Made by a program: the position numbers and the translations under genes
Notes under the pieces: generated by a model
The model's database searches: none
The model's input: only the letters and a program-made list of their open reading frames with translations
Told to the model about the DNA's origin: nothing
DNA from: a virus
Virus record (IMG/VR): IMGVR_UViG_3300030390_002421
Location: 1 to 39,937 of that record
Strand: one strand, 5' to 3'
Length of the DNA stretch: 39,937 nucleotides
Shown here: positions 1 to 20,334 of the stretch, one piece after another
Position numbering within the stretch: position 1 is the stretch's first letter
Layout: the number at the start of each line of letters is the position of its first letter

Positions 1-230
1 AAATAATTACAGTAAATGGAGAAACTATTCCTAAAGAAGAATTAATAGCAAGAAGTGAAGAATGGAGCGAGATTCAAGAAAATTTCTTTAGAAAAATGCT
101 TAAACAGGGTGGAACCTTTAAAGTAGCAGGGATAAAATACAAAGTAGAACTAATCGAAAGAAATGATTTAGATTCAAATGGAAATAAACCAGTAACTGTA
201 CCACCATTACCCGGTGAAAGAACATTTTAA
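1..230 (+). CDS. C-terminal end of an unrecognised protein (partial)
   Basis: The window opens inside this frame (first full codon at base 3) and it stops at 228-230, giving about 75 residues of a longer protein. The visible part is charged, with a helical stretch (EEWSEIQENFFRKMLKQGG), a short beta-like part (FKVAGIKYKVEL) and a proline-rich tail. I do not recognise the family. It carries neither the NSLYG-type motif B nor any other polymerase motif, yet sits one base before a polymerase fragment, so it may be a gene inserted into gene 43 or an added tail on the N-terminal polymerase piece. Confidence 0.6.
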   Translation, partial: IITVNGETIPKEELIARSEEWSEIQENFFRKMLKQGGTFKVAGIKYKVELIERNDLDSNGNKPVTVPPLPGERTF

Positions 231-231
231 T

Positions 232-1167
232 ATGAAACATTTAGAAGAAACACCTTGGTGGATATGTGATGCAGATGATGAAAATTATTGTGCTTATGTT
301 GATACAGACTCTAATTATTTTAATGCGGAACCTATACTACTTCATTTATATCCCAATTTTGAAGAATTTACTGATGAAAAAAAGGATGATATTTTAGAAA
401 GAGTAGCACTTAAATACCAAGATATTATTACAGAACATTATGACAATTTAGCTAAAGATTGTTTTAATGTTCCTGAACATAGACTTGAAATGAAAACTGA
501 ATGTGTAATCAGATCAGCTTATTTTAGAGCAACAAGAAGATATGCCCAGTGGATTACAAAACAGGAGGGTATTTCTAAAGAAACCTTAGATATTAAAGGT
601 TTGGAGTTTATGAAAGCAAATTTTCCACCCATTTTAGGAGAATTTTTTAATGATATTTTAAAACAAGTACTTAAAGGTGGTGAAAAAGCAAATATAATTG
701 ATCAAATTAAAGTATTTAAAAAACAAATATTAGGTGGAGAAATTCCCTTAGCCAAATTAGGTAATCCAACAGCCGTAAAAAAATTAGAAAAATATTCTGG
801 TACTAAAGCTAGAGCAGGGGAAATGTTTACAGAGATACTTAAAGGAGCCCCAGCACCAGTAAGAGCAGCTATTCGTTATAATGATTTATTAAAACTATGG
901 CAGCTAGATAAAAAACATAATTTAATTACTCAAGCAGATAAAGTTAAATGGATTTATGTTAAAGACAACCCATATAAAATAGAAGCATTAGCTTTTTTTG
1001 ATTATGATATACCAGAAAAAATACAAGATTTTTTAAATAGGTATGCTGATAGACAAAAAGTATTTGATTCAATATTATTAAATAAATTAGAGGGATTTTT
1101 TAGTGATTTACAATGGTCATTAGATTTAAACCCTTACACAAACGCATTAGCATCCTTTGAGATATAA
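232..1167 (+). CDS. 43: Family B DNA polymerase gp43, C-terminal part (motif C palm and thumb)
   Basis: This is the C-terminal third of a T4 gp43-type replicative polymerase, which copies phage DNA in complex with the clamp. YVDTDS (residues 22-27) is motif C with the catalytic Asp pair. TRRYAQW (101-107) matches the KKRY primer-contact motif, and the rest fits the thumb. The extreme C-terminus (NALASFEI) sits where T4 gp43 has its clamp-binding tail. I chose ATG 232, directly after the upstream stop; a GTG at 214 in the same frame is possible. At 311 residues it lacks the exonuclease domain and motifs A and B, so these must lie on a separate upstream polypeptide. The clamp gene follows 23 bases later. 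Confidence 0.85.
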   Translation: MKHLEETPWWICDADDENYCAYVDTDSNYFNAEPILLHLYPNFEEFTDEKKDDILERVALKYQDIITEHYDNLAKDCFNVPEHRLEMKTECVIRSAYFRATRRYAQWITKQEGISKETLDIKGLEFMKANFPPILGEFFNDILKQVLKGGEKANIIDQIKVFKKQILGGEIPLAKLGNPTAVKKLEKYSGTKARAGEMFTEILKGAPAPVRAAIRYNDLLKLWQLDKKHNLITQADKVKWIYVKDNPYKIEALAFFDYDIPEKIQDFLNRYADRQKVFDSILLNKLEGFFSDLQWSLDLNPYTNALASFEI

Positions 1168-1190: not shown

Positions 1191-1913
1191 ATGATAAATA
1201 AAAACACACTTACTTCAGTTATTTCAAAATATTATTTAAATGGATTAAATAATCAAGTAAAATGGAGAATTAAAGACAACCAACTTACAGTCTACGCAGG
1301 TGATAATGGTAGAGTATGTAAAGTAATACATAATAGTTTTAACTTGGAAGATGCTGAATTAGGTGTGTTTGATACACATAAACTTAGCAAATTAATTTCT
1401 ATTACCAATGGTGAATTAAATATAACTCTTGAAAAGATTAAAGCTGTTTACACTAAAATGCATATTGCAGATTTAAATTTTGACTTAACTTATTCATTAG
1501 CTGATATTTTAATTCTAGGTAAAAATACTTATTATGAAGACCCTGAAGAATTTGAAATACAAATTGATTTAACTAATGAAGATATTACCCATTTAATTAA
1601 AGCAAAAAGTGCTTTAGCTGATGTAAATAATATGTTAATAACTACAACAACAGATTTTGATGGGGTAAATGTTTGTGAGATTATATTTGGTGATAATACA
1701 GGTTTTTCTAATAAAATTACTTACCAACTTAGAGGTAATATTACTAAGGGAGACATTCAAATCCCATTTGATTCAGATATATTTAAGGACATATTAAGTG
1801 CTAATAAGGATATGGAAAAAGGCACACTAAAAATATCAGAAGTAGGTATGTTAAAAGCAAATTTCTCAACAGAAGAAACAGAAAGTGAATATTTTATCGC
1901 GAGGAACGAATAG
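1191..1913 (+). CDS. 45: DNA polymerase sliding clamp (gp45-like)
   Basis: A 240-residue protein of the size of T4 gp45 (about 228), the trimeric ring that holds gp43 on DNA and also activates late transcription in T4. Sequence identity is low, as is normal for this family. The repeated beta-alpha-beta pattern and the end (LKANFSTEETESEYFIA) resemble the gp45 C-terminus. Its place between the gp43 fragment and the clamp-loader genes is the strongest support. It has its own TTCGTATATT motif. Confidence 0.75.
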   Translation: MINKNTLTSVISKYYLNGLNNQVKWRIKDNQLTVYAGDNGRVCKVIHNSFNLEDAELGVFDTHKLSKLISITNGELNITLEKIKAVYTKMHIADLNFDLTYSLADILILGKNTYYEDPEEFEIQIDLTNEDITHLIKAKSALADVNNMLITTTTDFDGVNVCEIIFGDNTGFSNKITYQLRGNITKGDIQIPFDSDIFKDILSANKDMEKGTLKISEVGMLKANFSTEETESEYFIARNE

Positions 1914-2506: not shown

Positions 2507-2824
2507 ATGTCTGAAAAACGAAAATCAATCCAAACGATTACAGATAGTTTACTAGAACCCTTCTTTATTACTAAAGATGAGTATAGTTATACTGTTAAAG
2601 AAATGGTTACATCCGATGCTAACCACTTTAGATCTAAAGGTAAAAGTAAAACTTATGAAAAATCTTTGTATTATTTTTCTGAATTTGAACAAGCTCTCCA
2701 TAAAATTGCTGATTTAAAAGCAACTAAAGGAAACTTTGATAGTTTAAGAGGATATATTGAAAATTATGAATTAATTAAAAACCAAATAAAAAATTATACC
2801 AATGGAATTAGAAGCGCTATTTGA
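2507..2824 (+). CDS. Small hypothetical protein upstream of groES
   Basis: 105 residues, hydrophilic and mostly helical, without a family I recognise. The last 23 bases overlap the start of groES, so the two genes are translationally linked. It is the first gene after the promoter-like motif at 2470 and is probably cotranscribed with the chaperonin pair. Confidence 0.7.
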   Translation: MSEKRKSIQTITDSLLEPFFITKDEYSYTVKEMVTSDANHFRSKGKSKTYEKSLYYFSEFEQALHKIADLKATKGNFDSLRGYIENYELIKNQIKNYTNGIRSAI

Positions 2825-3173
2825 TGCTATTATTGTTAAACCCGTAGAAGTAGAAGAAACTACATACGGTAACATTATTGTACCTGACTTAGGTAAAGAA
2901 AAAAATGAAATGGGTACTGTAGTTGCAGTAGGTCCTGGGAAACCAACTATCACAGGTGAATTTATACCTACTAATCTAAAAGTAGGAGATAAAGTAGTTT
3001 TACCAACAATGGGTTTTACAAAACTTCCTTATAATGGGGAAGAATATTATGTAGGACCAGAAAACCAAGTACTAGCTAAGGTAAACCAACAGGTAGCAAT
3101 TGAGGAATTAATTGCAGAAACCAAAGTTACTGAAGAAGAAATTAATCAAATAAAAGATTTAACAAATGAATAA
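2802..3173 (+). CDS. groES: Co-chaperonin GroES
   Basis: GroES is the heptameric lid of the GroEL folding chamber; T4 uses its own gp31 for this with host GroEL to fold the major capsid protein. The sequence shows the barrel start (FDAIIVKPVEVEE), the mobile loop with its hydrophobic GroEL-binding tripeptide (TTYGNIIVPD), then MGTVVAVGPG, KVGDKVVLP and EEYYVGPENQVLAKV. It has 123 residues against about 97 in bacteria; the extra 25 or so form an acidic C-terminal tail. It overlaps groEL by 8 bases. Confidence 0.93.
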   Translation: MELEALFDAIIVKPVEVEETTYGNIIVPDLGKEKNEMGTVVAVGPGKPTITGEFIPTNLKVGDKVVLPTMGFTKLPYNGEEYYVGPENQVLAKVNQQVAIEELIAETKVTEEEINQIKDLTNE

Positions 3174-4788
3174 ACAAGTTACATTAGGAAAAACAGCAAG
3201 AGAAAATTTAGTGGAGGGTATAGATATATTAGCAGATGCTGTAGTATCTACATTAGGACCAAATGGTAGAAATGTAGTTATTTCAAACCCTCAAGGAGCA
3301 CCACAATCAACAAAAGATGGAGTTACAGTAGCAAAATCAATTACTTTAAAAGATCCTAATCAAGAATTAGGTGTACAATTAGTAAAACAAGCAGCTGTTA
3401 AAACCGCAGAAAAAGCAGGTGATGGTACAACAACATCAACTTTATTAGCTCGTGAGATGATAAAAGGAGGATTAAGTGCTTTAAATAATCAAGAAAATGC
3501 TGTGCAAATTAAAAGAGATATAGATAACACAGTAAGTGAAGTAGTAAATAATTTAAGAAATAAAATATCAGAAGAAATATCAGGTGAAGAACAATTAGAA
3601 CAAATTGCAACAATTTCGGCTAATAATGATCCTGAAACTGGAAAATTAATTTCAACCGCAATAGAAAAAGTAGGATTAGAAGGTGTTGTTCATATTGAAG
3701 AATCTCGCACAGGAGAAACTTACTTAGAAACTGTTGAAGGGTTACAGTTTGAAAGAGGATATAAGTCTCCTTATTTTGTTACTAATAATAGTAATATGAC
3801 TGCCATATTAGACAACCCTCTAATCCTTATTGCTGATAAAAAAATTACTCAAGTAAAAGAATTATTACCTATTTTAGAAGCTGTATCTGCGCAAGCAAAA
3901 TCTTTATTAATTATTGCTGAAGATATTGATAATGAAGCATTAGCAACTCTTATTGTTAATAAAATGAGAGGCACAATGAAAGTATGTGCGGTTAAAGCAC
4001 CAGATTTTGGTGATAGACGTAAATTAATATTAGAAGATATTGCTATTACTACAGGTGGAGTAGTGTTTGATAAACAAAAAGGAATGAAGCTTGACAAATT
4101 CTCTTGGGAATGGTTTGGTGAAGCTCGTACTATAACAATAGAAAAAGAACAAACAACAATTGTAGATGGAAAAGGAGGAATTGAACAAATTGAAGCACGT
4201 GTTGAAGAATTACAACAACAAATCAACAAAGCAACAACACCGTTCGAAACAGAAAAACTTCAAGAAAGGTTGGCGAAATTCACAGGAGGAGTAGCTATCA
4301 TTCATGTAGGTGGGAATACAGAAACCGAAATGAGGGAGAAAAAAGATAGAGTTGATGATGCATTACATGCAACTAAAGCTGCTATTGAAGAAGGAATAAT
4401 ACCCGGAGGTGGAACTGCATTATTATATGCTTCTTCAGGTATAAAAGCTAATACAACAGGTGCACAAATTGTAATAGAAGCTTGTGCTAAACCATTTAAT
4501 CAAATTTTAGTTAATGCTGGTTATGATCAGGTTAAAGGTCAAATTCTAGCTAATAATTTAATTAATTCAGGTAATAATACTTGGGCTGGATTTGATATTA
4601 AAACCCTAAAAACAGTTGATATGAAAAAAGCTGGTATTATCGATCCAACTAAAGTAGCAAGAACAGCATTACAAAATGCAGCATCAGTTGCTGGTACAGT
4701 ATTACTTACAGAATGTACAGTAGTAGATGAACCTAGTGAAGATAGTTCTCAACCACAAATAGACCCATCAATGATGGGAATGATGTAA
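3166..4788 (+). CDS. groEL: Chaperonin GroEL (60 kDa, group I)
   Basis: Full-length 540-residue GroEL, an ATP-driven double-ring folding machine. Hallmarks are seen in order: STLGPNGRNVVI, the ATP-site GDGTTTSTLLAREM, apical-domain EGLQFERGYKSPYFVTN, the equatorial RVDDALHATKAAIEEG with the ATPase Asp, GIIPGGGTAL, and a Met-rich tail (PSMMGMM) like the GGM tail of cellular GroEL. Nothing catalytic is missing, so it should be active. Having both GroEL and GroES in one phage is uncommon and implies folding independent of the host chaperonin, perhaps of capsid or tail proteins. Confidence 0.96.
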   Translation: MNKQVTLGKTARENLVEGIDILADAVVSTLGPNGRNVVISNPQGAPQSTKDGVTVAKSITLKDPNQELGVQLVKQAAVKTAEKAGDGTTTSTLLAREMIKGGLSALNNQENAVQIKRDIDNTVSEVVNNLRNKISEEISGEEQLEQIATISANNDPETGKLISTAIEKVGLEGVVHIEESRTGETYLETVEGLQFERGYKSPYFVTNNSNMTAILDNPLILIADKKITQVKELLPILEAVSAQAKSLLIIAEDIDNEALATLIVNKMRGTMKVCAVKAPDFGDRRKLILEDIAITTGGVVFDKQKGMKLDKFSWEWFGEARTITIEKEQTTIVDGKGGIEQIEARVEELQQQINKATTPFETEKLQERLAKFTGGVAIIHVGGNTETEMREKKDRVDDALHATKAAIEEGIIPGGGTALLYASSGIKANTTGAQIVIEACAKPFNQILVNAGYDQVKGQILANNLINSGNNTWAGFDIKTLKTVDMKKAGIIDPTKVARTALQNAASVAGTVLLTECTVVDEPSEDSSQPQIDPSMMGMM

Positions 4789-5006: not shown

Positions 5007-5275
5007 CTAAGACAAAAATTGAAGAACAAAATATCCTAATCGCTAGGCGAGTACCGCCTGGCGATAAATGGAGATTAATTGCAAATGAACCAGATGGTCC
5101 TATACATAAAACATTAACTGATTGTTTAGAAGCATATATGGTAAAAACAGGATTTAAAGGTAGTTATAAATTAGAACCGTTAAAAAGTAATTTATATGCA
5201 ATTGATTCTAAAGAAACAGAAGTAATACCTGAACCAGTAAAGAAATATTCAATATATGGCGAGTACGGAGCATAG
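5003..5275 (+). CDS. Hypothetical protein upstream of the clamp loader
   Basis: 90 residues, no recognised family. The middle (DKWRLIANEPDGPIHKTLTD) is compact and mixed alpha/beta; the end is Tyr- and Gly-rich. It overlaps the gp44 gene by 20 bases, which argues for a replication-related or at least coregulated protein. Bases 5041-5063 inside it form a strong hairpin. Confidence 0.65.
   Translation: MAKTKIEEQNILIARRVPPGDKWRLIANEPDGPIHKTLTDCLEAYMVKTGFKGSYKLEPLKSNLYAIDSKETEVIPEPVKKYSIYGEYGA
5041..5063 (+). other. GC-rich hairpin inside the start of a coding region
   Basis: CGCTAGGCG, loop AGTAC, CGCCTGGCG: a nine-pair stem with one T-G wobble, beginning 38 bases after the ATG at 5003. It stands out sharply in this AT-rich sequence. 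Confidence 0.55.
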
Positions 5276-6167
5276 TTTATTAGTAGAAAAATATAGACCT
5301 AAAACATTAAATAATTATGTTGGTAACGAAAGCATAAAAAAATCTATATCTGCGTATTTAAATCAAAATGATATACAAAATTTTATATTTTATGGTCCTG
5401 CAGGAACTGGTAAAACAACATTAGCAAAGATTATTGTTAATAGTTTAGATTGTGATCACTTGTATATTAATGCTTCTGATGAGCGTGGTATTGAAACTAT
5501 TAGAGATAAAGTTTCTAGCTTTGCATCTGTTGCTTCATTTAAACCTCTTAAGGTTGTTATTTTAGATGAAGCAGATTTTCTTACTATACAAGCTCAAGCA
5601 TCACTTAGAAACATAATTGAAACATTTTCACGTACTACAAGATTTATTATGACTTGTAATTTTGTAGAACGTATTATTGATCCTTTACAATCTAGATGTC
5701 AAGTACTTAAAATTGTACCCCCAACTAAAAAAGATGTTGCTAAACATTTAAATTGGGTTTTACAACAAGAATCAATTGAACATAATATAAATGATTTAGT
5801 ACCTTTAGTTAACCAATATTATCCTGATTTACGTAAATGTATTAATACTATACAATTATCTACGTTAGATAATAAATTAAAATTAGATAAATCAATACTT
5901 ACATCATCAAATTATATTGATAAAGTAATTACAGCATTATCAAATAAATCTAAATTTAATGATATACGCCAAATTATTGCAGATGCTAATGTAGATGATT
6001 TTGATGAATTATTTAGAGCATTATATGATCGCTCATCAGAATATTATAAGGATAAAGAAGGTACAGCAGCAGTAGCAATAAATGAAGCTCAATACAAAGC
6101 AAATTTCCGTATTGACAAGGAAATAAATATAATGTCATTAATTCAAACTTTAATTAAATATAAATAA
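5256..6167 (+). CDS. 44: Clamp-loader ATPase subunit (gp44/RFC-like)
   Basis: AAA+ ATPase that, with gp62, opens the clamp ring and loads it on primer-template. Visible motifs: LVEKYRPKTL at the N-terminus, Walker A GPAGTGKT (47-54), Walker B with DEAD (104-107), sensor 1 around IMTCN (131-135) and the SRC arginine-finger motif (146-148). 303 residues compares with 319 in T4. It starts inside the previous gene and is followed two bases later by another small gene and then gp62. Confidence 0.92.
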   Translation: MASTEHSLLVEKYRPKTLNNYVGNESIKKSISAYLNQNDIQNFIFYGPAGTGKTTLAKIIVNSLDCDHLYINASDERGIETIRDKVSSFASVASFKPLKVVILDEADFLTIQAQASLRNIIETFSRTTRFIMTCNFVERIIDPLQSRCQVLKIVPPTKKDVAKHLNWVLQQESIEHNINDLVPLVNQYYPDLRKCINTIQLSTLDNKLKLDKSILTSSNYIDKVITALSNKSKFNDIRQIIADANVDDFDELFRALYDRSSEYYKDKEGTAAVAINEAQYKANFRIDKEINIMSLIQTLIKYK

Positions 6168-8490: not shown

Positions 8491-8691
8491 ATGACAAACA
8501 AAAAACCAATGACACTAACTAGTGTTAAAGTCAAAAGCGATTTATTCGAGAATTTTAAAATTGAATGTGTAAAGCGTAAATTTTCTTTCCAAAAACTTGC
8601 CGACCGTAGTCTGTTTTTGTATCTTACTGATGAAAATTTCCGTAAACAAATTACTAATCAAATTAATCTCGAAATAAAGGAAAATGAATAA
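8491..8691 (+). CDS. Small protein, possible ribbon-helix-helix DNA-binding type
   Basis: 66 residues. TLTSVKVKSDLFENFKIECVKRK followed by a second helix (FQKLADRSLFLYL) matches the beta-alpha-alpha pattern of Arc/MetJ-like proteins. It overlaps the first glycosyltransferase by eight bases, so it could regulate the operon it begins. Fold assignment is by eye. Confidence 0.6.
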   Translation: MTNKKPMTLTSVKVKSDLFENFKIECVKRKFSFQKLADRSLFLYLTDENFRKQITNQINLEIKENE

Positions 8692-10123
8692 AGACTTTAA
8701 ATCTATCCCTAAGGATAAACGAAAAAAAATACTTCTAATATGTGATGATATTAGAGTGCATTCGGGAGTAGCAACAGTAGCTAAAGAAATAGTTACTCAT
8801 ACTGCTCATCATTTTAATTGGGTACAAATAGCAGGTTCTATAAACCACCCAGAAAAAGGTAAAAGATTAGATTTATCACAAAATACAAATGAATTAATGG
8901 GTATTAATGATTCTTCTATACTTTTATATCCATCTGATGGTTATGGTAATTCTAATATGATACGAGAAATCATTAAAATAGAAAAACCAGATGCTATTAT
9001 GTTGTTTACAGACCCAAGATATTTTATGCATATTTGGAACTTAGAACAAGAAATTAGAAAATCTATTCCTATTACATATTTAAATATATGGGATGATTAC
9101 CCAGCACCTATGTACAATAGACCATACTATGAAGCATGTGATTTATTAATGGGTATATCAAAACAAACTGTTAATATTAATAAATTAGTATTAAAAGGTC
9201 ATGAAGGTAATAGAATTTTTAAGTATATTCCTCATGGTAAGGATACTAAAAATTTCTTCCCAATTGAAGATAATAATTTAGATTATATTAACTTTAAAAA
9301 ATCTATATTTAAACATAAACAACCTAAATTTGTTTTATTTTTTAATTCAAGAAACATTAGAAGAAAACAAATCCCAGATGCTATGTTAGCATTTAGAACT
9401 TTTTTAGATACTATACCAAAAGAAGAAGCTAAGGAGTGTTATATGATTTTAAAAGTAGAAAAAGTTACAGACGCAGGAACAGATTTAACTAAAGTAAAAG
9501 AATATTTATTTGATGAAGAATACCCAGATAATGTAATGTTTATAGACCAAAGGTTATCTGAACAACAATTAAATTGGTTATATAATTTAGCTGATGTTCA
9601 AATATTACTAACATCTAATGAAGGTTGGGGGTTAACAATTACTGAAGCAATGTTAGCTGGAACTCCAATTATTGCTAATGTTACAGGTGGGCTGCAAGAT
9701 CAGATGAGATTTGAAGATGATAATGGAGAATGGTTTACCCCTAATGCTGATATACCTTCTAATCATAGAGGTACTTATAAAAAGCATGGTGAGTGGGCAT
9801 TTCCAGTTTATCCAACAAGTAGATCTATTCAAGGTTCACCTCCAACACCTTATATTTTTGATGATAGATGTAAATGGGAAGATGCTATGGAAAGAATTAA
9901 GGAATGTTATAAATTAGGTAGAAAAGAATTAAAAAGAAAAGGATTAAAAGGAAGAGAATGGGCTTTAAGTGATGAAGCAGGTTTTACCTCTCCACACCAA
10001 GCCCAAAGAGTAATAGAAGCTTTTAATGAGTTATTTAACACTTGGAAACCAAGAGAAAAATATGAGTTAATAAATACTAATGAATATAAAGGAAAATTTT
10101 TGAACCATAAAATTATATATTAA
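8684..10123 (+). CDS. GT4-type glycosyltransferase (GT-B fold)
   Basis: 479 residues. Rossmann-like N-domain beginning ILLICDDIRVHSGVATVAKE, then the donor domain with the NSRNIRRKQ loop and the GT4 signature SNEGWGLTITEAMLAGTP (E-x7-E region), then GLQDQM. It would transfer a sugar from a nucleotide donor to a glycan in the cytoplasm. Specificity cannot be read. A long insertion near residues 340-390 carries a Tyr/Pro/Ser-rich segment. It is the first enzyme of the glycan operon. Confidence 0.85.
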   Translation: MNKDFKSIPKDKRKKILLICDDIRVHSGVATVAKEIVTHTAHHFNWVQIAGSINHPEKGKRLDLSQNTNELMGINDSSILLYPSDGYGNSNMIREIIKIEKPDAIMLFTDPRYFMHIWNLEQEIRKSIPITYLNIWDDYPAPMYNRPYYEACDLLMGISKQTVNINKLVLKGHEGNRIFKYIPHGKDTKNFFPIEDNNLDYINFKKSIFKHKQPKFVLFFNSRNIRRKQIPDAMLAFRTFLDTIPKEEAKECYMILKVEKVTDAGTDLTKVKEYLFDEEYPDNVMFIDQRLSEQQLNWLYNLADVQILLTSNEGWGLTITEAMLAGTPIIANVTGGLQDQMRFEDDNGEWFTPNADIPSNHRGTYKKHGEWAFPVYPTSRSIQGSPPTPYIFDDRCKWEDAMERIKECYKLGRKELKRKGLKGREWALSDEAGFTSPHQAQRVIEAFNELFNTWKPREKYELINTNEYKGKFLNHKIIY

Positions 10124-11415
10124 TGAGTAAACCACGTTTTGTAATTAGTTGCCCCTTTGATACCTACTCAGGTTATGGTGCAAGATCAAGAGATATAGTT
10201 AAATCTATAATTGAGTTAGATAAATATAAAGTAGAATTACTTCCCCAAAGATGGGGAGAAACATCATGGGGTTTTTGTGAAGACCATCCAGAATGGAATT
10301 TTTTAAATAATCATAAAGCAACTCCTGATTGGCAAAAAGTTCAACCTGAATTGTGGATGCAAATAACTATCCCTAATGAATTTCAATCTGTAGGAAAATA
10401 CAATATTGGCTTAACAGCAGGTATTGAGGCTACGGCATGTAAAGCAGAATGGATTGAGGGGTTAAATCGAATGAATATGAATTGGGTTTCTTCTACATTT
10501 GCAAAAGAAACTTTCCAAAAAATGGTTTATGACCAGCAAGATAAAAGAACAGGACAGATAGTAAAACAAGTAAAATTAGAAAAACCAATAGAAGTAATAT
10601 TTGAAGGGGTTGATTTAACTACTTATAAACCAATTAAAGCTTCTGAAATTAAAACTATAGATTTATCTGATATTAAAGAACAATTTTGTTATTTATTTGT
10701 TGGTCATTGGATGAATGGTGACTACGGTCATGATAGAAAAAATGTAGGAGTTTTAATTAAATCATTCTATGAAGCCTTTAAGAATAAAAGAGGAGAAAAA
10801 CCCGCTTTAATTTTAAAATCATCAACTGGGGTATCTTCTTATGTTAGTAGAGATGTTATTTTAGATCGAATTAAAGGTATAAGAAAAGAAGTAGGAGGAA
10901 GTAACTTACCAAATGTTTATTTATTAAATGGTGAATTTGACGACTCAGAAATAAATGAATTATATAATCATCCAAAAGTAAAAGGAATGATTTCTTTTAC
11001 TAAAGGAGAGGGGTATGGAAGACCTTTACTAGAATTTTCTACAACAGGAAAACCTATTATAGCATCAGGATGGTCTGGTCATTTAGATTTTTTAGATAAA
11101 AACAGTAATGTTTTATTAGGTGGGAAATTAGAAAATGTACATCCTTCTGCTGCTAATGATTGGTTAATAAAAGAAGCCCAATGGTTCCAAGTAAATACTC
11201 AACAAGGAATAAGTGCAATGAAAGAGGTATTTAAAAAGTATAAACAATATTCTACAAATTCTAAAAAACAAAGGCATTATGCTAAAACTAATTTTAGTTG
11301 GGAAAAAATGAAAGAATTAGTTAAAAATAATTTAGAAAAAAATGTGCCTGATTTTCCCAAACAAGTAGAATTATCTTTACCTAAATTACAATTACCAAAA
11401 TTAAATAAAGTTTAA
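10123..11415 (+). CDS. Second GT4-type glycosyltransferase
   Basis: 430 residues, start at the TAATG junction. N-terminal ISCPFDTYSGYGARSRDI is a donor-loop-like glycine motif; FTKGEGYGRPLLEFSTTGKP carries the E-x7-E signature near residue 297. VGHWMNGDYGHDRKNVGVL marks the start of the second Rossmann domain. Acceptor and donor unknown. The C-terminus ends in a Lys/Pro/Leu-rich tail. Confidence 0.83.
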   Translation: MSKPRFVISCPFDTYSGYGARSRDIVKSIIELDKYKVELLPQRWGETSWGFCEDHPEWNFLNNHKATPDWQKVQPELWMQITIPNEFQSVGKYNIGLTAGIEATACKAEWIEGLNRMNMNWVSSTFAKETFQKMVYDQQDKRTGQIVKQVKLEKPIEVIFEGVDLTTYKPIKASEIKTIDLSDIKEQFCYLFVGHWMNGDYGHDRKNVGVLIKSFYEAFKNKRGEKPALILKSSTGVSSYVSRDVILDRIKGIRKEVGGSNLPNVYLLNGEFDDSEINELYNHPKVKGMISFTKGEGYGRPLLEFSTTGKPIIASGWSGHLDFLDKNSNVLLGGKLENVHPSAANDWLIKEAQWFQVNTQQGISAMKEVFKKYKQYSTNSKKQRHYAKTNFSWEKMKELVKNNLEKNVPDFPKQVELSLPKLQLPKLNKV

Positions 11416-11416
11416 T

Positions 11417-11860
11417 ATGAAACATGATGAAATAATAAATTGTCCTAGGTCTGGAGGCGATTTATGCTATAAAACAGAAATAAATAAAGATATTACCAAT
11501 TATTACAGTTTATCTTGCGGGTTTTGGACTAATAGTTTAATGTTAGAAGATTCTGATTTTTATAAAGAACAAGTAAGTATTTTACCTGAAATTTATAAAG
11601 ATTTAGCTTGGACTGATCCTAAAACTAAATTAATATGGTTACCTAATACTGTAAATGTTAAAGAAAACGGTATGATATTCGCTTCAGGTACTGATGTAAA
11701 AAATTGGAATTGGGGGGCAGTAAAAGCTATTCTAATCCCAGAAGAGGATAGAGAAAAATATAAAGATGAAAAGTATAGAGCCGATATGTCTACTATAAAA
11801 TATTTTAAAGAACGTGATTTTATAGATGCTCTTTCATATATTGGAATGTTACCAGAATAG
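11417..11860 (+). CDS. Hypothetical protein within the glycan operon
   Basis: 147 residues with Cys-containing starts (NCPRSGGDLCY, SLSCGFWTNSLM) and a Trp-rich core (DVKNWNWGAVKAILIPEED). The two N-terminal cysteines and Cys35 could bind zinc, but I do not recognise a family. It lies between a glycosyltransferase and an epimerase and is probably cotranscribed. Confidence 0.65.
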   Translation: MKHDEIINCPRSGGDLCYKTEINKDITNYYSLSCGFWTNSLMLEDSDFYKEQVSILPEIYKDLAWTDPKTKLIWLPNTVNVKENGMIFASGTDVKNWNWGAVKAILIPEEDREKYKDEKYRADMSTIKYFKERDFIDALSYIGMLPE

Positions 11861-11866
11861 AATAAT

Positions 11867-12718
11867 ATGAAAATACTAGTTACAGGAGGAGCAGGTTTTA
11901 TAGGAACTAACCTTATCAAAAAATTAATATCTGAAAGGCATAATGTACATTCATTAGATAATTATGAGACAGGTTTAAAATCTAATGAACAAATAGGATG
12001 CGATTATCATCTCAATGATATAACTGATATCCATTTAATGGATAAAGATTTTGATTTAGTTTACCATTTAGCAGGTTTATCAAGAATTCAACCTTCATTT
12101 AATAATCCTGAAGAAACCTTTAGAGTAAATACTATAGGTACTCAAAAAGTTTGTGAATTTGCTAGATTAACTGGAGCTAAAGTAGTATATGCTGGTTCCT
12201 CATCAAAATGGCATAATCCTTACCAATCCCCTTATTCTACTTATAAATACTTAGGAGAAGAAATTTGTAAAATGTATAAATTAACTTATGGGATAGACAT
12301 TGAAATCGCTCGTTTTTATAATGTATATGGTCCTTACGAAGTAATAGATGGTGATTGGGCTGCAGTAATAGGCATTTGGAGAAGACAAGTTAGAGATGGT
12401 GAAAAAATTACTATAGTTGGAGATGGTGAACAAAGAAGAGATTTTACCCATGTAGATGATATTTGTGATGCCTTGTGGAGAATAGGAATGAAAAGTTTAA
12501 AACACACAGATGCTTGGGAATTAGGAACAGGTATGAATTATTCTATTAATGATGTTTATTTAATGTTTAAAGAAAGATTTGAGGTTGATTCTATAAATAT
12601 TCCTGATCAAAAAGGTAATTATAGAGAAACATTAAGAGAGAATGATGATAGTTTAGAAAGACTAGGATGGAAACCAAGTGATAAATTAGAAGATTACATA
12701 TTAAATTTAGATAAATGA
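11867..12718 (+). CDS. NAD-dependent sugar-nucleotide epimerase/dehydratase (extended SDR)
   Basis: 283 residues with the NAD-binding GGAGFIG (7-13), a catalytic Tyr-Lys pair in PYSTYK, RFYNVYGPYE and RRDFTHVDDICDAL, all typical of GalE/RmlB-like extended SDRs that act on UDP-, dTDP- or GDP-sugars. Substrate cannot be assigned; it is somewhat shorter than GalE. It overlaps the following transferase by four bases (ATGA). Confidence 0.88.
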   Translation: MKILVTGGAGFIGTNLIKKLISERHNVHSLDNYETGLKSNEQIGCDYHLNDITDIHLMDKDFDLVYHLAGLSRIQPSFNNPEETFRVNTIGTQKVCEFARLTGAKVVYAGSSSKWHNPYQSPYSTYKYLGEEICKMYKLTYGIDIEIARFYNVYGPYEVIDGDWAAVIGIWRRQVRDGEKITIVGDGEQRRDFTHVDDICDALWRIGMKSLKHTDAWELGTGMNYSINDVYLMFKERFEVDSINIPDQKGNYRETLRENDDSLERLGWKPSDKLEDYILNLDK

Positions 12719-13338
12719 AAATAAGTTACGCTATAACGGTATGTAATGAGTTTGTAGAAATACAAAAACTTATATCAATTCTTTTAGAATATAAAAGATA
12801 TGAAGATGAAATTATAATATTATATGACTTTAAAAATGGTAGTGAAGGAATTGAACAATTTCTAAGAGCAAAATCAGTAAATGCCGAATTTAGCTGGCAT
12901 AAAGGAGAATTTAAAGGTCATTTTGCTGATTGGAAAAATCAATTAACAGAATTATGTAGTGGTGATTATATATTTCAAATTGATGCAGATGAATACCCAC
13001 ATGATAGCTTAATATCACAACTGCCAGTTATATTAGAGGCTAATCCTGAAAATGAAGTTTATTTAATCCCTAGAGTAAATACAGTTGAAGGATTAACTAA
13101 CGAACATATACAAAAATGGGGTTGGAATGTTAATGATAAAGGTTGGGTAAATTGGCCTGATTATCAGTGGCGTGTTTGGAAAAACAAACCAGAAATAAAA
13201 TGGGTAAATAAAGTACATGAAAAATTAAGTGGACATAAAACCTATGCTACATTGCCTGATATGGAAGGGTTATCGTTATATCATCCTAAAGATATTAAAC
13301 GCCAAGAAAAACAAAATAAATATTATAATACTTTATGA
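12715..13338 (+). CDS. GT2-like glycosyltransferase (GT-A fold)
   Basis: 207 residues beginning YAITVCNEFVEIQKLIS, with the metal-binding DxD in FQIDADEYPH and a following RVWKNKPEIKWVNKVHEKL segment as in the WaaE/KdtX-like subgroup that modifies lipopolysaccharide cores. Short but apparently complete. Overlaps both neighbours by four bases. Confidence 0.8.
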   Translation: MKISYAITVCNEFVEIQKLISILLEYKRYEDEIIILYDFKNGSEGIEQFLRAKSVNAEFSWHKGEFKGHFADWKNQLTELCSGDYIFQIDADEYPHDSLISQLPVILEANPENEVYLIPRVNTVEGLTNEHIQKWGWNVNDKGWVNWPDYQWRVWKNKPEIKWVNKVHEKLSGHKTYATLPDMEGLSLYHPKDIKRQEKQNKYYNTL

Positions 13339-15707
13339 AAAATAACTTTATAATTATAAGCACTTGCTATAATAAAGATAAATGGGTTAAAAACAATGTA
13401 AATAGTTTAAAATCTCAAAGTAACCAAAATTTTAAGGTATATTATGGTTATGATAAATCCACAGACAATACATTAAAATATTTAAAAGAATCAATAGGGG
13501 AAGATACAGATAAATATCAAATAATTCATAATGAAGGTGAAAAAAGTTTTTTAGGTAATTTTGTCCATGTTTACAAATATCTAAAAGAAAATCAATTAGT
13601 AAATAAAGAGGACATAATTATTGAAATTGATGCTGATGATTGGTTATTACATTCCTTTATATTGCAATATTTAGATCAAGTATACCAAAACCCAGACATA
13701 TGGATGACTTATGGTCAATATATGGAATACCCTTCAGGAGAGCTAGGAGGTCATTTTAATATGCATATTGAGGATAAAGTAGATAGTTTAAATGCTTATA
13801 GACGTGCTCCTTTTGCTTATAGTCATTTAAGAACTTATAAATCTTGGTTATTAGATAAAATATCAGATAAGGATCTTATTGACCCTAGAACCGGGAAATA
13901 TTTTAAACATGCTGGGGATTTTGCTTTATGTATGCCCATGGTTGAAATGGCAGGAAAAAATCGTATACATAGGGTAGATAATCCTGTTTATGTTTTAAAT
14001 AGACATGAAGATTTAGAAAATGAATCTAAAGATAACCTTCATTCACAAAAGGAATGTGATTTATCTATTAGATCTTTACCTGTTAGAGAAAGAATCCCTG
14101 CTATTTCAAAAATACAACCTATATTAGCTGGTGGTTTAGGAAATATGATGTTTCAAATAGCAGCAGCTTATGGGTTAAGTAAAAAACATAATCTAGAAGT
14201 TGTTTCTGATTTAAATCATGTAGGTACACTACATAGTCATCCTTCAACTTATAAAGATAACTTATTTAAAAATTTAAAAATATTATCATCACCATTAAAT
14301 ACATTTAAAAATGTAAAATGTGAACCAATAGATTTTTCATTTCAACCAAATTTAGAAATACCCCCAGGAGAAAATATTAAACTTTCTGGTGAGCTCCAAT
14401 CATATAAATATTTTGACCATTGTAAAGATGAAATTATTAAAATGTTTAAAAACCCTAATCATAAAGAAAAAAAGGGATATGTTTCTATGCATGTTAGAAG
14501 AGGAAATTATATAAATCTATCGGAATATCATTATAATTTAAGTATTGATTATTATAAAAATGCTATTGATTATTTTAAAGGATATAAATTTTTAGTTTTT
14601 AGTGATGATATAGAATGGTGTAAAGAAAATTTTAAAGGGAACAATTTTACTTTTATACAAAATGATAATGATTTTGATGATTTATACCAAATGTCAGAAT
14701 GTGAACATAATATTATTGCTAATTCAACTTTTAGTTGGTGGGGTGCATATTTAAATTCTAATAAAAATAAAATAGTAGTATATCCTAATAAGTGGTTTGG
14801 TAGCAAATATTCTAGTTGGACTATAATGGATTTATTCCCAGATAATTGGGTTTGTTTAAGTGAAAACATCCCCAAAATAGAAGTTAATTTATTTGATAAT
14901 GCATATAGACATTTAGCTAAAGATAATGGTAGATATTCTTCAGTACATGGTAAAATATCTAAACATATTAAATTTGTAAGAGATGTTAAAAATTATGAAG
15001 GTATAAATTTATTTATAGATGAATGTTTAAGTAATGGAGATGTTAAAAATATTAAAACAGGTAAAAAAATTGGTTGGTTAATGGAAACCAGAGAAGTTTA
15101 TCCAAAACGTTATGATGAATTTGAAACCTATGTAAACGATTTCGATTATATTCTTACCCATGATAAGAATTTGTTAACTAAATACCCAAAGAAAACCAAA
15201 TTTGTTCCTTTTGGGGGTTGTTGGATTAAAGATAATAATTTCCATTTGCATATAAAGAATAAAAATATTTCAATGATATATTCAAATAAAACTATGTTTG
15301 AAGGTCATAAATTAAGACACCAAGTTGCTAATAATATTAAGAATATAGATTTATTTGGTAGAGGCACATCAAACCCTGTTAATAATAAAGAAGAATCATT
15401 AGTAGATTATAGGTATTCTATTGTAATAGAAAATTCAAAAACAGATAATTATTTTACTGAGAAACTAATTGATTGTCTTGCTGTAGGTACTATTCCTATT
15501 TATTGGGGTTGTTCTAATTTAAAGGATTATTTTAACTTGGATGGTATAATTACTTTTAGTACATTAGAGGAATTAAATAATATACTGCCTACTTTAAATA
15601 AAAACTTATATAAGTCTAAATTAGATGCTATAAAGGATAATTTAGAAAAAAGTAAAGAATATAATGTAACTGAAGATTGGATTTATAAAAATATAATAAA
15701 TGAGTAA
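13335..15707 (+). CDS. Three-domain glycosyltransferase: GT2-like, GT11-like, GT10-like
   Basis: 790 residues with three transferase domains in one chain. Residues 1 to about 245 are GT-A: FIIISTCYNKDKWVKNNV and the metal site IDADDW near 96. About 255-520 matches GT11 alpha-1,2-fucosyltransferases: LAGGLGNMMFQIAAAYGL near 262, HVRRGNY near 384, NSTFSWWGAYL near 461. About 530-790 matches the GT10 catalytic end: YRYSIVIENSKTDNYFTEKL and GTIPIYWG near 692-715. No membrane anchor is seen. With Gmd and the Fcl-like enzyme encoded just downstream, the obvious donor is GDP-L-fucose or a close relative. I know of no reason to suspect a sequencing join, since the frame is continuous. Confidence 0.85.
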   Translation: MKNNFIIISTCYNKDKWVKNNVNSLKSQSNQNFKVYYGYDKSTDNTLKYLKESIGEDTDKYQIIHNEGEKSFLGNFVHVYKYLKENQLVNKEDIIIEIDADDWLLHSFILQYLDQVYQNPDIWMTYGQYMEYPSGELGGHFNMHIEDKVDSLNAYRRAPFAYSHLRTYKSWLLDKISDKDLIDPRTGKYFKHAGDFALCMPMVEMAGKNRIHRVDNPVYVLNRHEDLENESKDNLHSQKECDLSIRSLPVRERIPAISKIQPILAGGLGNMMFQIAAAYGLSKKHNLEVVSDLNHVGTLHSHPSTYKDNLFKNLKILSSPLNTFKNVKCEPIDFSFQPNLEIPPGENIKLSGELQSYKYFDHCKDEIIKMFKNPNHKEKKGYVSMHVRRGNYINLSEYHYNLSIDYYKNAIDYFKGYKFLVFSDDIEWCKENFKGNNFTFIQNDNDFDDLYQMSECEHNIIANSTFSWWGAYLNSNKNKIVVYPNKWFGSKYSSWTIMDLFPDNWVCLSENIPKIEVNLFDNAYRHLAKDNGRYSSVHGKISKHIKFVRDVKNYEGINLFIDECLSNGDVKNIKTGKKIGWLMETREVYPKRYDEFETYVNDFDYILTHDKNLLTKYPKKTKFVPFGGCWIKDNNFHLHIKNKNISMIYSNKTMFEGHKLRHQVANNIKNIDLFGRGTSNPVNNKEESLVDYRYSIVIENSKTDNYFTEKLIDCLAVGTIPIYWGCSNLKDYFNLDGIITFSTLEELNNILPTLNKNLYKSKLDAIKDNLEKSKEYNVTEDWIYKNIINE

Positions 15708-16590
15708 AATTATAGTAACAGGAGGTTCGGGTTTAGTAGGTAAACATCTAAAAGAAATATTACCTAATGCTATTTATTTAAGTAGTAAAGATTGTGATTT
15801 AACTGACATAAATAAAGTTAAATGGTTAATTTCATCACACAACCCAGATATAGTTGTACATTTAGCTGCCCGTGTAGGAGGAATACAGGATAATCTAAAA
15901 TACCCAGCTGATTATTTTGATGATAATATTTTAATAAATACTAATATTGTTAAAGTATGTAAAGAATATAATGTAAAAAGGTTTATAGGAATTTTAAGTA
16001 CTTGTATTTATCCTAGTGTAGTTGATACTTATCCTATGAAGGAAGAAGATTTATTTATAGGACCACCACCTCCTTCTAATTTTAGTTATGGTTATGCTAA
16101 ACGTTGTTTAGCAGTTCAAATTGATGCTTATAATAAACAATTTGGAACTAAATATAATTATTTAATTCCATGTAATTTATATGGAGATTATGATAATATG
16201 CATGATGAAAGCAAAATGCATTTTATAACAGCTTTATTAAATAAAATTAGGAATAGTAAAGATAAAACATTACATTTATTGGGTACAGGTAAACCCTTAA
16301 GACAATTTATGTATGCTAGAGATTTAGCAGATATTATTAAATTAGTTATTGATAATAATGTAACTGAAAGTTTTAATGTTGCTCCTGATTTTAATTATTC
16401 AATTGATGATATGGCTAAAATGGCATTAAAAGCCACAGGTAATAACTATAAAATTGTATATGATAAGCCTGAATTAGATGGCCAATACAGAAAAGATGTA
16501 AGTAATAAAAAATTATTAAAAATATTCCCTAATTTTAAATTTACAGATTTAAAAGAAGGATTAAAACAAGTTTATGGTAAAATTAGTTAG
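15700..16590 (+). CDS. fcl: GDP-L-fucose synthase-like epimerase/reductase (Fcl or ColC type)
   Basis: 296 residues. Makes GDP-L-fucose from GDP-4-keto-6-deoxymannose by 3,5-epimerisation and NADPH reduction. Seen: GGSGLVG (8-14), HLAARVGGI, STCIYP equivalent to the Ser-x-Cys of Fcl, YGYAKR (Tyr/Lys pair), NLYGDYDNMH and a His in KMHFITALL at the place of the second epimerase residue. All key residues are present. ColC, which finishes GDP-L-colitose, is a homologue with the same motifs, so the choice depends on the PLP enzyme that follows. Overlaps the previous gene by 8 bases. Confidence 0.87.
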   Translation: MSKIIVTGGSGLVGKHLKEILPNAIYLSSKDCDLTDINKVKWLISSHNPDIVVHLAARVGGIQDNLKYPADYFDDNILINTNIVKVCKEYNVKRFIGILSTCIYPSVVDTYPMKEEDLFIGPPPPSNFSYGYAKRCLAVQIDAYNKQFGTKYNYLIPCNLYGDYDNMHDESKMHFITALLNKIRNSKDKTLHLLGTGKPLRQFMYARDLADIIKLVIDNNVTESFNVAPDFNYSIDDMAKMALKATGNNYKIVYDKPELDGQYRKDVSNKKLLKIFPNFKFTDLKEGLKQVYGKIS

Positions 16591-17728
16591 TGATACAATT
16601 GATAAAAATGATATTAATGCGTTAATAGAATGGTTATCCCAAGATGAAATCCCTAGGTTAACTAAAGGTCCTTTAACTCTAGAATTAGAACAAAAATGGG
16701 CTACTAAAATTGGTACCAAATATTCCATATTTGTAAATTCAGGATCATCTTCAATATTATTAACTCTAGCAGCCTTAAAATATCATAGTAAATTAAGAAA
16801 TGATAAAATTATAGTCCCAGGATTAAGTTGGTCAACAGATGTAAGTTCACCTATGTTGTTAGGATATGAAACTTATATGTGTGATTGTAATTTAGAAGAT
16901 TTATCTTGTGATTTAAAACACTTAGAACAATTATTTCAAGAACACGATCCTTCAACTTTTATATTAGTATCACCACTTGGGTTAGTTCCAAATATGGAAG
17001 AAATAGTTTTATTGTGTGAACAATATAATGTAACACTACTTGAAGATGTTTGTGAAAGTATGGGATCTAAAAACCAAAATAAATATTTAGGTAGTTTTGG
17101 TTTAGCTTCATTTTATTCAATGTACTTTGGTCACCATTTATCTACTATAGAAGGAGGATTTATAAACACAGATAATGAAGAGCTATATCATTTACTTTTA
17201 ATGATGAGAAGTCATGGTTGGGATAGAGATTTACCTAAAGATGCTCAAACTAAATTAAGAAAAGAATTTAATAGTAATGATTTTGATTCATTATATAATT
17301 TTTATGTACCTGGATTAAATGTCAGATCAACTGATTTACAAGCTTTTATTGGTTTAAGAGCAATAGATAAATTAGATGAATATTCTTATAAACGTAGAGT
17401 TAATTTCCACCACTACAGACGTAAAATAAAAAATAATATTTTAAAATTAAAGGAAAATGAAAATGATTTTGTCTCCAGTTTTGCTATTCCTATATTAAAT
17501 ACAAATAGGAATAAGATAGCCCAAGACTTACAAAATAATAATATAGAAGTTAGACCTTTAATAGCAGGTAATATGGCTACTAAACCTATGTGGTATAATG
17601 AAAATGATATTCCATCATTACCTAATTGTGAATTAGTAAATAAAATAGGATTTTATATCCCAAACCATCAAGATTTAACAGAGGATGAAATTAATCAAAT
17701 AACATTAATAATTAATAAGTATGAGTAA
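16574..17728 (+). CDS. DegT-family PLP enzyme with His at the catalytic-Lys site (ColD-like 3-dehydratase)
   Basis: 384 residues, fold-type I PLP protein: NSGSSSILLTLAALK (phosphate site), LLEDVCES with Asp158 for the pyridine nitrogen, and FYSMYFGHHLSTIEGG (181-195). Sugar aminotransferases of this family have Lys at the position of His187; here it is His-His. His at this site is the hallmark of the 3-dehydratases ColD (GDP-4-keto-6-deoxymannose) and RfbH/E1 (CDP sugar), which remove the 3-hydroxyl rather than add an amine. With Gmd next door, GDP-4-keto-6-deoxymannose is the likely substrate. No ferredoxin-type reductase partner, needed by RfbH, is seen, favouring the ColD type. Confidence 0.82.
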   Translation: MVKLVSDTIDKNDINALIEWLSQDEIPRLTKGPLTLELEQKWATKIGTKYSIFVNSGSSSILLTLAALKYHSKLRNDKIIVPGLSWSTDVSSPMLLGYETYMCDCNLEDLSCDLKHLEQLFQEHDPSTFILVSPLGLVPNMEEIVLLCEQYNVTLLEDVCESMGSKNQNKYLGSFGLASFYSMYFGHHLSTIEGGFINTDNEELYHLLLMMRSHGWDRDLPKDAQTKLRKEFNSNDFDSLYNFYVPGLNVRSTDLQAFIGLRAIDKLDEYSYKRRVNFHHYRRKIKNNILKLKENENDFVSSFAIPILNTNRNKIAQDLQNNNIEVRPLIAGNMATKPMWYNENDIPSLPNCELVNKIGFYIPNHQDLTEDEINQITLIINKYE

Positions 17729-18704
17729 AATAGCATTAATTACAGGTATAAACGGGCAAGATGGTTCATACTTAGCTGAATTTTTATTAAAAAAAGGATA
17801 TCAAATATGGGGTACAGTTAAAAGAAATTCTGTAGCTGAAAATCAAACGGCTAGGATTAGTAATAATGTATTCAAACAAATTAATTTAGAATATGCTGAT
17901 TTAAATGATTTATCTTCACTTATTAGAGTAATACAATTATGCCAACCAGATGAAATCTATAATTTGGCAGCTCAATCTCATGTAAGAATAAGTTTTGACC
18001 AACCTATTTATACTGCTCAAACAACTGGAATTGGAACATTAAATTTGCTAGAAGCTATAAAATTAACAAATAAATCTATTAAAATGTATCAAGCATCCTC
18101 CTCAGAAATGTTTGGTAATTCAATAGATAACGATGGATACCAAAGAGAAACAACTCCTTTAAATCCTGTATCGCCTTATGGTTGTGCCAAGGTATTTTCG
18201 TATAATATATGCCGAAATTATAGAAATTCTTATGGTATGTTTATATCAAATGGTATATTATTTAATCATGAATCCCCTAGAAGAGGTACAAATTTTGTAA
18301 CTAATAAAGTAGTTAAAACGGCAGTTCAAATTAGTAAGGGTTTAAAACATAAACTAGCATTAGGTAATTTAGAATCTACTAGAGATTGGGGGCATGCTAA
18401 GGATTATGTTGAAGCTATGTGGTTAATGTTACAACAAGATACATCAAACGATTATGTTTGTGCTACTGGTATATCACATAGTGTTAGAGATTTATGTGAT
18501 TATGTTTTTAATAAATTAAATTTAGATTATAGAGATTATATTACAGTAGATCCTAAATATTATAGAGCAGAAGAATTACATGATTTAAAAGGTGATTCTA
18601 CTTTATTAAGAGGTTTAGGTTGGGAGCCTAAACATTCATTTGAATCTATGTTAGATGATATGATAGAATATTGGGATACAAAAGATGTTAAAGATTTAGT
18701 ATGA
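17721..18704 (+). CDS. gmd: GDP-mannose 4,6-dehydratase
   Basis: 327 residues; converts GDP-D-mannose to GDP-4-keto-6-deoxy-D-mannose, the branch point to fucose, colitose, rhamnose and perosamine. Diagnostic motifs: ITGINGQDGSYLAEFLL, NLAAQSHVRISFDQP, SSSEMFGNS, YGCAK (Tyr/Lys pair), LFNHESPRRGTNFVT, GNLESTRDWGHAKDYV and a C-terminal YYRAEELHDLKGD. Complete. Its position directly after the PLP enzyme and Fcl-like enzyme makes a three-gene pathway. Confidence 0.95.
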   Translation: MSKIALITGINGQDGSYLAEFLLKKGYQIWGTVKRNSVAENQTARISNNVFKQINLEYADLNDLSSLIRVIQLCQPDEIYNLAAQSHVRISFDQPIYTAQTTGIGTLNLLEAIKLTNKSIKMYQASSSEMFGNSIDNDGYQRETTPLNPVSPYGCAKVFSYNICRNYRNSYGMFISNGILFNHESPRRGTNFVTNKVVKTAVQISKGLKHKLALGNLESTRDWGHAKDYVEAMWLMLQQDTSNDYVCATGISHSVRDLCDYVFNKLNLDYRDYITVDPKYYRAEELHDLKGDSTLLRGLGWEPKHSFESMLDDMIEYWDTKDVKDLV

Positions 18705-19639
18705 TAGGTAAAAAAATATTTATAACTGGTGGTGCAGGTTTTTTAGGTAAAAATTTAGTTAAACGTTATTATAACAATAATGAAATTACAATTTATTCTA
18801 GAGACGAAGCAAAACATTATTATCTTAAACAACAATTTCCTAAAATTAAATGTGTAATAGGTGATATTCGTAATTTTGATTTACTAAAAAGAGCATCATT
18901 AGGACATAATATAGGCATATTTGCTGCTTCATTAAAACAAATAAGTGCTGTTGATCAAAATGTAGAAGAATCTGTAAAAGTGCTTATAGAAGGTGCTTTA
19001 AATTCTAGAAGGGCGGCTGAAGAAAATAATTTTGAAGCTGCTTGTTTCATATCCTCAGATAAATCAAGATCTGCAACTACATTATATGGCGCGATGAAAT
19101 TTGTAGCAGGTGAATCATTTATAGTTAATGCTGAAAATTCTAATGTGCGTTTATCTACCGCAGTATACGGTAATGTTATTAATTCTACTGGTAGTATTAT
19201 ACCATTAATTTGGGATTCAATTAATAAAAAATACCCATTAACTTTATATTCAGAACAAATGACTCGTTTTGTTATTGATATAGAAAGTGCAATGGATTTA
19301 ATTGAAAAAGGTTTAAAAGTAACAGGATATAATGTGATCCCAAATATAAAATCATTTGAAATAAAAGATTTATTTGAAATATATAAATCAAATTTTGATT
19401 TAGAATATAAAATTGGGACACCTCGTATATCAGAAAAACTACATGAAATAATGTTTTCTAAAGAAGAACTATCTAGAACTTTTTATAATGAACAGGATAA
19501 CACTTACTATATGCACTATAAAGAAATAGATCAAGAACTTTATCCAAGTATTACTAGAGAATTTAGTAGTGATAGAGTTTGCATGCCTAAAGCAGAATTA
19601 AATAACATTTTAAGTACATATAATTATTTTAAACCATGA
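18701..19639 (+). CDS. UDP-sugar 4,6-dehydratase-like SDR (PseB/CapE/WbjB type)
   Basis: 312 residues: FITGGAGFLGKNLV, AASLKQISAVDQN, SSDKSRSATTLYGAMKFVAGE (the S-x-DK and YxxxK pair of inverting UDP-GlcNAc 4,6-dehydratases), then LTLYSEQMTRFVIDIESAMDLI matching the GxMTRF region. In bacteria such enzymes start pathways to pseudaminic acid, FucNAc or QuiNAc. The exact sugar is not readable. ATGA overlap with both neighbours. Confidence 0.82.
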   Translation: MIGKKIFITGGAGFLGKNLVKRYYNNNEITIYSRDEAKHYYLKQQFPKIKCVIGDIRNFDLLKRASLGHNIGIFAASLKQISAVDQNVEESVKVLIEGALNSRRAAEENNFEAACFISSDKSRSATTLYGAMKFVAGESFIVNAENSNVRLSTAVYGNVINSTGSIIPLIWDSINKKYPLTLYSEQMTRFVIDIESAMDLIEKGLKVTGYNVIPNIKSFEIKDLFEIYKSNFDLEYKIGTPRISEKLHEIMFSKEELSRTFYNEQDNTYYMHYKEIDQELYPSITREFSSDRVCMPKAELNNILSTYNYFKP

Positions 19640-20334
19640 AAATATTAATATTAGGACATAAAGGTATGTTAGGACATATGGTTAAAAAAGTATTAACCAA
19701 ATCTAAATTTAAAATCCAAACAATAGAACAAAAATACCCAAATTGGGATTCTTTGATGTTTAAAGATATTGATTTTATAGTTAATTGTATAGGGGCAATA
19801 CCTCAAAAAACTAATAAATTTGATATTAATTGGGAAATACCTATGTGGTTAGAAAATAATACTAATTGTAAAATTATTCACCCAAGCACAGATTGTGAAA
19901 TGGATGATGATGATTATGGTAATTCAAAAAGAAAAGCTGCAGATTTTATTAAATCTAAAGGTACTAAAACCAAAATGATTCAAACTTCTATAGTTGGTCC
20001 TGAAATAAATTCTAATGCCAGTTTATTAGAATGGTTTTTATCACAAGAAGACGAAGTATTTGGTTATACTAAAGCATTATGGAATGGTAATACAACACTT
20101 GAATGGAGTAAATGGTGTTTAAATTTAATAAATAATTGGGATGATTATCCAAAACTTAGTATTTTACAATCAAATACAGTTTCAAAATATAAATTATTAA
20201 ATTTGTTTAAAGAAATTTACCAAAAAGATATAATTATACAAAAAAGGGAATTAGGTAAAGATAAAACTTTAAAGGGTAATATTAAAACAAAAAATATTGA
20301 AGAACAATTATGGGAATTGAAAAATCTAAAATAA
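19636..20334 (+). CDS. RmlD-like sugar-nucleotide reductase
   Basis: 232 residues; ILILGHKGMLGHMVKKVL is the RmlD-type nucleotide site and STDCEMDDDDYGNSKRKAADF gives the Tyr/Lys pair. Shorter than RmlD (about 290). Its place after the PseB/CapE-like enzyme parallels the dehydratase-reductase order of FucNAc-type pathways (WbjB-WbjC, CapE-CapF), but no third epimerase (WbjD/CapG) is seen here. 25 bases overlap the next gene. Confidence 0.75.
   Translation: MKILILGHKGMLGHMVKKVLTKSKFKIQTIEQKYPNWDSLMFKDIDFIVNCIGAIPQKTNKFDINWEIPMWLENNTNCKIIHPSTDCEMDDDDYGNSKRKAADFIKSKGTKTKMIQTSIVGPEINSNASLLEWFLSQEDEVFGYTKALWNGNTTLEWSKWCLNLINNWDDYPKLSILQSNTVSKYKLLNLFKEIYQKDIIIQKRELGKDKTLKGNIKTKNIEEQLWELKNLK

Follow-up and report, generated by a model that had tools for sequence, protein, structure and literature searches.

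A family-B DNA polymerase divided between two genes just before motif C in a lineage of T4-like phages, probably acting as two chains

A replicative polymerase normally consists of one chain, and a polymerase gene that seems to begin just ahead of its own catalytic motif C raises the question of where the rest of the enzyme lies and how the break arose. The window, i.e. the whole stretch of 39,937 nt analysed here, is the entire IMG/VR record IMGVR_UViG_3300030390_002421; it begins within an unrelated 87-residue gene, so that the N-terminal half of the polymerase lies off the contig and is absent from the record. An earlier note, made from the sequence alone, had read the frame starting at 232 as the end of a split polymerase, with motif C, a KKRY-like motif and a thumb, a cut about 24 residues before DTDS, and an unrelated frame ending just upstream. 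Each of these readings was borne out (Table 1). The frame matched the T4-type DNA polymerase family PHROG 262 (E=4.7e-44) over columns 565-842 of the 856 in the profile, and neither exonuclease nor motif A nor motif B was present in it. An AlphaFold model of the C-half alone reached a pLDDT of 84 and recovered the C-terminal palm/thumb fold of RB69 gp43 in Foldseek (TMq 0.79, E=1.8e-12); according to this model, the C-chain is predicted to fold by itself like the C-terminal part of RB69 polymerase. The head of the C-half can be aligned with an enlarged loop of unsplit relatives and is likely to contribute to the contact surface with the N-half.

Table 1. Positions of the polymerase C-half, its parts and its neighbours in the window
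Feature	Position	Strand	Details
87-aa gene, last 75 codons, not polymerase	3-230	+	complete copy in L002, 2333-2596
Junction: 87-aa gene stop TAA, one base, C-half ATG	228-234	+	read from sequence
C-terminal half, T4/RB69-type family-B DNA polymerase	232-1167	+	311 aa, ATG start; head, motif C, palm end, TRRYAQW, thumb
N-terminal head MKHLEETPWWICDADDENYCAYV	232-300	+	mean majority-residue conservation in split clade 0.84 over aligned loci
Motif C DTDS, catalytic aspartates of C-chain	301-312	+	begins at residue 24; invariant in alignment
TRRYAQW, KKRY-like motif	532-552	+	residues 101-107
Conserved next gene, 240 aa, sliding-clamp position	1191-1913	+	same position and length in L010; similar length in L083
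gp44-like clamp loader	5256-6167	+	PHROG 168, E=3.5e-76; marks replication-gene neighbourhood

The upstream sequence, where the earlier note had proposed to look for the missing part, was read from the closest relative, locus L002; its C-half protein and that of the window are 100% identical. There the N-terminal part is present as a separate ORF of 580 aa (245-1987), which matches PF03104 and PF00136 and carries exo I (FFDIE, residue 107), motif A (DLTSLYPS, residue 390) and motif B (NSLYG, residue 525). The gene order in L002 is N-half, cupin gene (mannose-6-phosphate-isomerase-like, PF01050), 87-aa gene and C-half (2598-3533); the exonuclease and motifs A, B and C are found in the order of a family-B polymerase, spread across two genes. 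The end of the N-half aligns with RB69 residue 609, past motif B, and motif C of RB69 is located at 621, which places the cut in the loop that leads from the helix following motif B to the strand bearing motif C.

Relatives were collected in two sets. The first comprised the 80 best relatives, taken as loci carrying the C-terminal part, 77 of them with both ends of the break visible; the second, obtained with the diverged Flavobacteriales-bin relative L222 as query, added 78 loci with both ends visible. The split-clade phages make up a large group, uncultured, mostly marine and T4-like. The cut position was identical in all 77 first-set loci, with in-frame stops on either side and gaps of 262-4214 nt, so the split is not an assembly artefact; in most of these loci the N-chain terminates in ...MNKVMRxxxKLxI, and the C-chain starts with MKHLEETPWWICD. 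Among the 78 loci of the sister subclade, no insert separates the halves in 60, which overlap by 4 nt (ATGA, 50 loci) or 1 nt (TAATG, 10 loci); the remainder are either spaced by 2-43 nt (5 loci) or interrupted by inserts of at least 200 nt (13 loci). A fused polymerase was found at none of the 155 loci with both ends visible, a figure that includes near-copies and does not equal 155 independent events. The claim of a gene 43-type polymerase split just before motif C thus holds at the same cut in every one of them. Three loci (L307, L308 and L319) have about 30 extra N-half residues (..GERMTVVGTSFSLGTSESLER) and still show a 1-nt overlap with the C-half start.

Motifs A and B were found in 127/127 loci, motif C and RRYAQW in 160/160; for the two halves, pairwise dN was 0.03-0.19 and dS 0.56-1.3, and by this measure both are under strong purifying selection. 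Distances among N-halves covary with those among C-halves (Mantel r=0.93, 0/999 permutations). Relatives of 158-164 kb, near-complete and bearing the T4 gp23 capsid gene, had no PolA or PolIII-alpha, and PF00136 detected the polymerase halves only; in the 158-kb record it reached the N-half only, the C-half being nonetheless present (L244). The earlier note had left room for a complete polymerase elsewhere, of which the frame at 232 would be a duplicate, and no intact second copy was found in the relatives of 64-164 kb that were searched. It is thus very improbable that the pair is decaying or redundant while another enzyme replicates the genome: the window, as a fragment, cannot alone exclude a second polymerase, but the low dN/dS, the intact motifs across sampled loci and the content of the near-complete relatives all speak against it.

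The halves might instead be rejoined after they are read. Splicing, which the earlier note had named as something that could restore one chain, would take the form of a group I/II intron removed from the RNA or of a split intein acting in trans; inteins do interrupt PolB in LR756508, an uncultured huge phage, and a split intein has been reported in phage MIJ3 (PMC6892783). In the split clade, however, neither intron nor intein was found. The Rfam scan at gathering threshold detected no intron family in the window or in the relatives scanned, and intein N- or C-terminal blocks were found at neither terminus of the break, the intein domain in the C-half of LR756508 being detected as positive control. 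The shortest gaps of the window's subclade are taken up by the 87-aa gene, most gaps in the sister subclade are negative, and intein halves would have no room, since the N-chain ends within about 15 residues of the helix and the C-chain begins about 23 residues before motif C; we hold splicing to be highly doubtful. Programmed -1 frameshifting, by which overlapping pairs would yield some fused chain, is scarcely credible: the C-frame is indeed -1 relative to the N-frame at both ATGA and TAATG junctions, yet a slippery heptamer occurs at 0/60 overlapping junctions and frameshifting is impossible over the gaps of hundreds of nt found in the window's subclade.

Our preferred reading, held with considerable confidence, is that 232-1167 encodes the C-terminal partner in a replicative family-B polymerase made of two chains, an arrangement that has become fixed within one T4-like phage lineage, the break having occurred in a loop and the cargo having probably arrived later. 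An N-chain of about 560-580 aa would contribute the exonuclease, the palm with motif A and the fingers with motif B, and a C-chain of about 311 aa would contribute motif C, the end of the palm and the thumb; the two would be translated separately and assemble non-covalently, the two catalytic carboxylate motifs being divided between them. With motif A on the N-chain and motif C on the C-chain, two chains are needed for the active site. The corresponding claim of the earlier note, that two chains must assemble, therefore stands as regards the separation of the motifs, and the assembly itself, like the function of the pair, is what we infer from sequence. Visible in the sequences themselves are the split and its fixation, the selection on the halves, the overlaps, the enlarged loop and, for the near-complete relatives, the lack of a second polymerase.

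Clues to the origin of the break come from unsplit polymerases. In the nearest unsplit relatives (L220, L221 and L322-L334), the polymerase is a single ORF whose loop is about 15 residues longer at the cut site; in a model of L322, this loop (569-591) runs from helix 539-568 to strand 592-595, with a low local pLDDT of 77. At 45 more distant T4-type polymerase loci, and at nearly all of L139-L219, the gene is uncut and the loop short; contig ends truncate a few of these loci. The nearest named-phage match in GenBank is the unsplit polymerase of a Microcystis phage, at 32-34% identity. In the tree, the split clade forms one group beside the unsplit L220/L221 (SH-aLRT 98-99), and about three further independent cuts fall in the same loop: one shared by LR756508 and L139, one in L141 and one in L181. 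Motif B reads NSLCMATARP, and not NSLYGATALP, in the related unsplit L221 and L334.

The most economical reading of the tree, the overlaps and the loop is likely a succession of three steps: (i) growth of the loop between the post-motif B helix and the motif C strand; (ii) breakage of the gene by a stop/start overlap (ATGA or TAATG) into two cistrons, which would be translationally coupled; and (iii) entry of other genes at the break, both in the subclade of the window and, on several occasions, in its sister subclade. By analogy with L002, the junction in the window's phage would hold the cupin gene and the 87-aa gene. The converse, an ancient insert lost in the sister subclade, requires an equal number of steps, and such a loss is possible, but regaining a 4-nt overlap is less likely.

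The earlier note had looked to mobile endonucleases, as in the split gene 43 of Aeromonas phages, and this comparison was not supported: the cut in Serratia phage PS2, the annotated example of that class, lies elsewhere, an endonuclease was recognised at 1/155 loci (L311) and 60/78 sister loci overlap. A broader version, in which a homing endonuclease made the split in the manner of Aeromonas phage 25 or Aeh1 NrdA and was later lost or swapped for cargo, we regard as unlikely, though it deserves some weight. The GIY-YIG homing endonuclease in the slot of L311, a sister-subclade locus, leaves room for a mobile element as the cause of the break, later lost; distant lineages have an endonuclease-like ORF (L141, where it has 275 aa, and L181) or an intein in motif C (L083) at the same loop; and the Aeromonas gp43A/43B and Aeh1 NrdA-a/b pairs show that the route is possible (PMC2988022). 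It is countered by the insert-free overlapping halves of the sister subclade, by the enlarged loop already present in the unsplit sister group and by the lack, in the split clade, of any N-tail of intein or HEG type.

The preferred reading, a loop break followed by cargo, turns the gap between the halves into a slot whose contents can be followed. In the first set, the 87-aa gene family occupies it at 75 of the 80 C-part loci and fills the 262-nt gaps, the shortest in the window's subclade. Pfam and PHROG searches gave no match for this gene, and named phages no significant one; a diverged homologue lies in L222 at 1665-1886, 6.4 kb upstream of an uninterrupted polymerase pair. Being away from the junction, the L222 copy suggests that the 87-aa gene is a phage gene that moved in and not a remnant of the splitting event. 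Slots of the window's subclade also often hold a gene for a cupin, a DUF6165 protein, a cytidylyltransferase-like protein, a DegT aminotransferase, a GNAT acetyltransferase, an FkbM methyltransferase or a formyltransferase. Separate insertions in the sister subclade comprise a gene for an Smr-like protein, a cluster of sugar genes, a gene found downstream of the pair in L222 and, in L311, the GIY-YIG endonuclease. The extended N-half tails of L006, L008, L057 and L226 end in ..EQPRPMW or ..SPRPYGI and resemble a decayed cupin start fused to the N-half.

Downstream of the C-half, the 240-aa gene in the sliding-clamp position could not be assigned as a clamp, since it had no significant Pfam or PHROG match. 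By eye, a small heat-shock-like ORF (2013-2432) adjoins 123-aa and 540-aa ORFs (2802-4788) that read as GroES and GroEL. After the replication genes, the window carries a glycan/nucleotide-sugar island (8684-22435) with several glycosyltransferases, two epimerases and an aminotransferase; gene kinds of this island also occur as cargo between polymerase halves in relatives.

Other polymerases made from two genes differ from this one in several respects. Methanothermobacter thermautotrophicus likewise has a family-B polymerase from two genes, but an archaeal and not a phage one; reportedly, in the 1999 work of Kelman et al., both of its chains were necessary for activity, and we know of no cargo genes or ATGA overlap in that system. 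The phage case described here consists of two genes, and no splicing element was found in it. The two-gene PolB of Methanobacteriales has been attributed to erratic intein excision (PMC4104785). Closer at hand, gp43A/gp43B of Aeromonas phages 25 and 44RR and of Serratia phage PS2 form a T4-type PolB in two chains, as here, and those of phage 25 co-purify and are active (PMC2988022). In PS2 (gp43B/gp43A), the cut falls near residue 309, as judged from the annotated PS2 genes, between exonuclease and palm, and leaves the palm motifs on one chain; in the Aeromonas phages, the split goes with a seg endonuclease or with a spacer that is not translated, whereas here the gap is coding or absent. Neither mark of the Aeromonas 25 type, i.e. 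the exonuclease/palm cut and the endonuclease or untranslated spacer, characterises the split clade.

The PolB of the PA5oct-like phage MIJ3 is encoded by a pair of ORFs separated by another gene, with a split intein and an HNH endonuclease, and was described under 'fractured genes'; its intein blocks on both parts lead one to expect one spliced chain, and the split clade has none (PMC6892783). PHROG 2062 and PHROG 1918 are likewise separate N- and C-terminal phage polymerase families; PHROG 1918 was set aside as the C-half family because its members start before motif B and so reflect a different cut, the window C-half covering columns 91-371 of 382. LR756508 (= L083) and L139 share the loop cut and a separate C-gene, with an independent origin in the tree; unlike the split clade, LR756508 has inteins in both halves. 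In L083 (8953-12006 and 15012-16877), the N-half is interrupted by its intein at motif B and the C-half within motif C, and four other genes lie between the halves. In L141 (9128-9955), and at the same position in L181, the endonuclease-like ORF, which has no firm family match, cuts the polymerase at motif C; the tail of the N-half looks like the last part of a split-intein N-fragment, and the start of the C-half is seemingly a TTG/GTG just ahead of the T-D-S codons. No description of the present cut or of its cargo slot was found in the literature searched, several key papers lying outside that search.

To our knowledge, the gene-43 splits described in phages so far have been associated with homing endonucleases, with introns or with inteins. 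Here, the reading that we favour by a modest measure is that an obligate heterodimer arose without a mobile element, through a stop/start overlap in an enlarged loop, was not re-fused at any of the 155 loci, and that the break then became a cargo slot in the replication cluster for glycan-modifying and other accessory genes. The intermediates, i.e. the enlarged loop, the overlapping pair and the cargo-separated pair, are visible in sequence, making this lineage a testable case of an essential enzyme becoming a heterodimer whose two chains each carry a catalytic motif, and of a break in a core gene serving as a site of insertion. The group will also be misread by gene callers and by marker-gene surveys in which polB is taken to be one gene.
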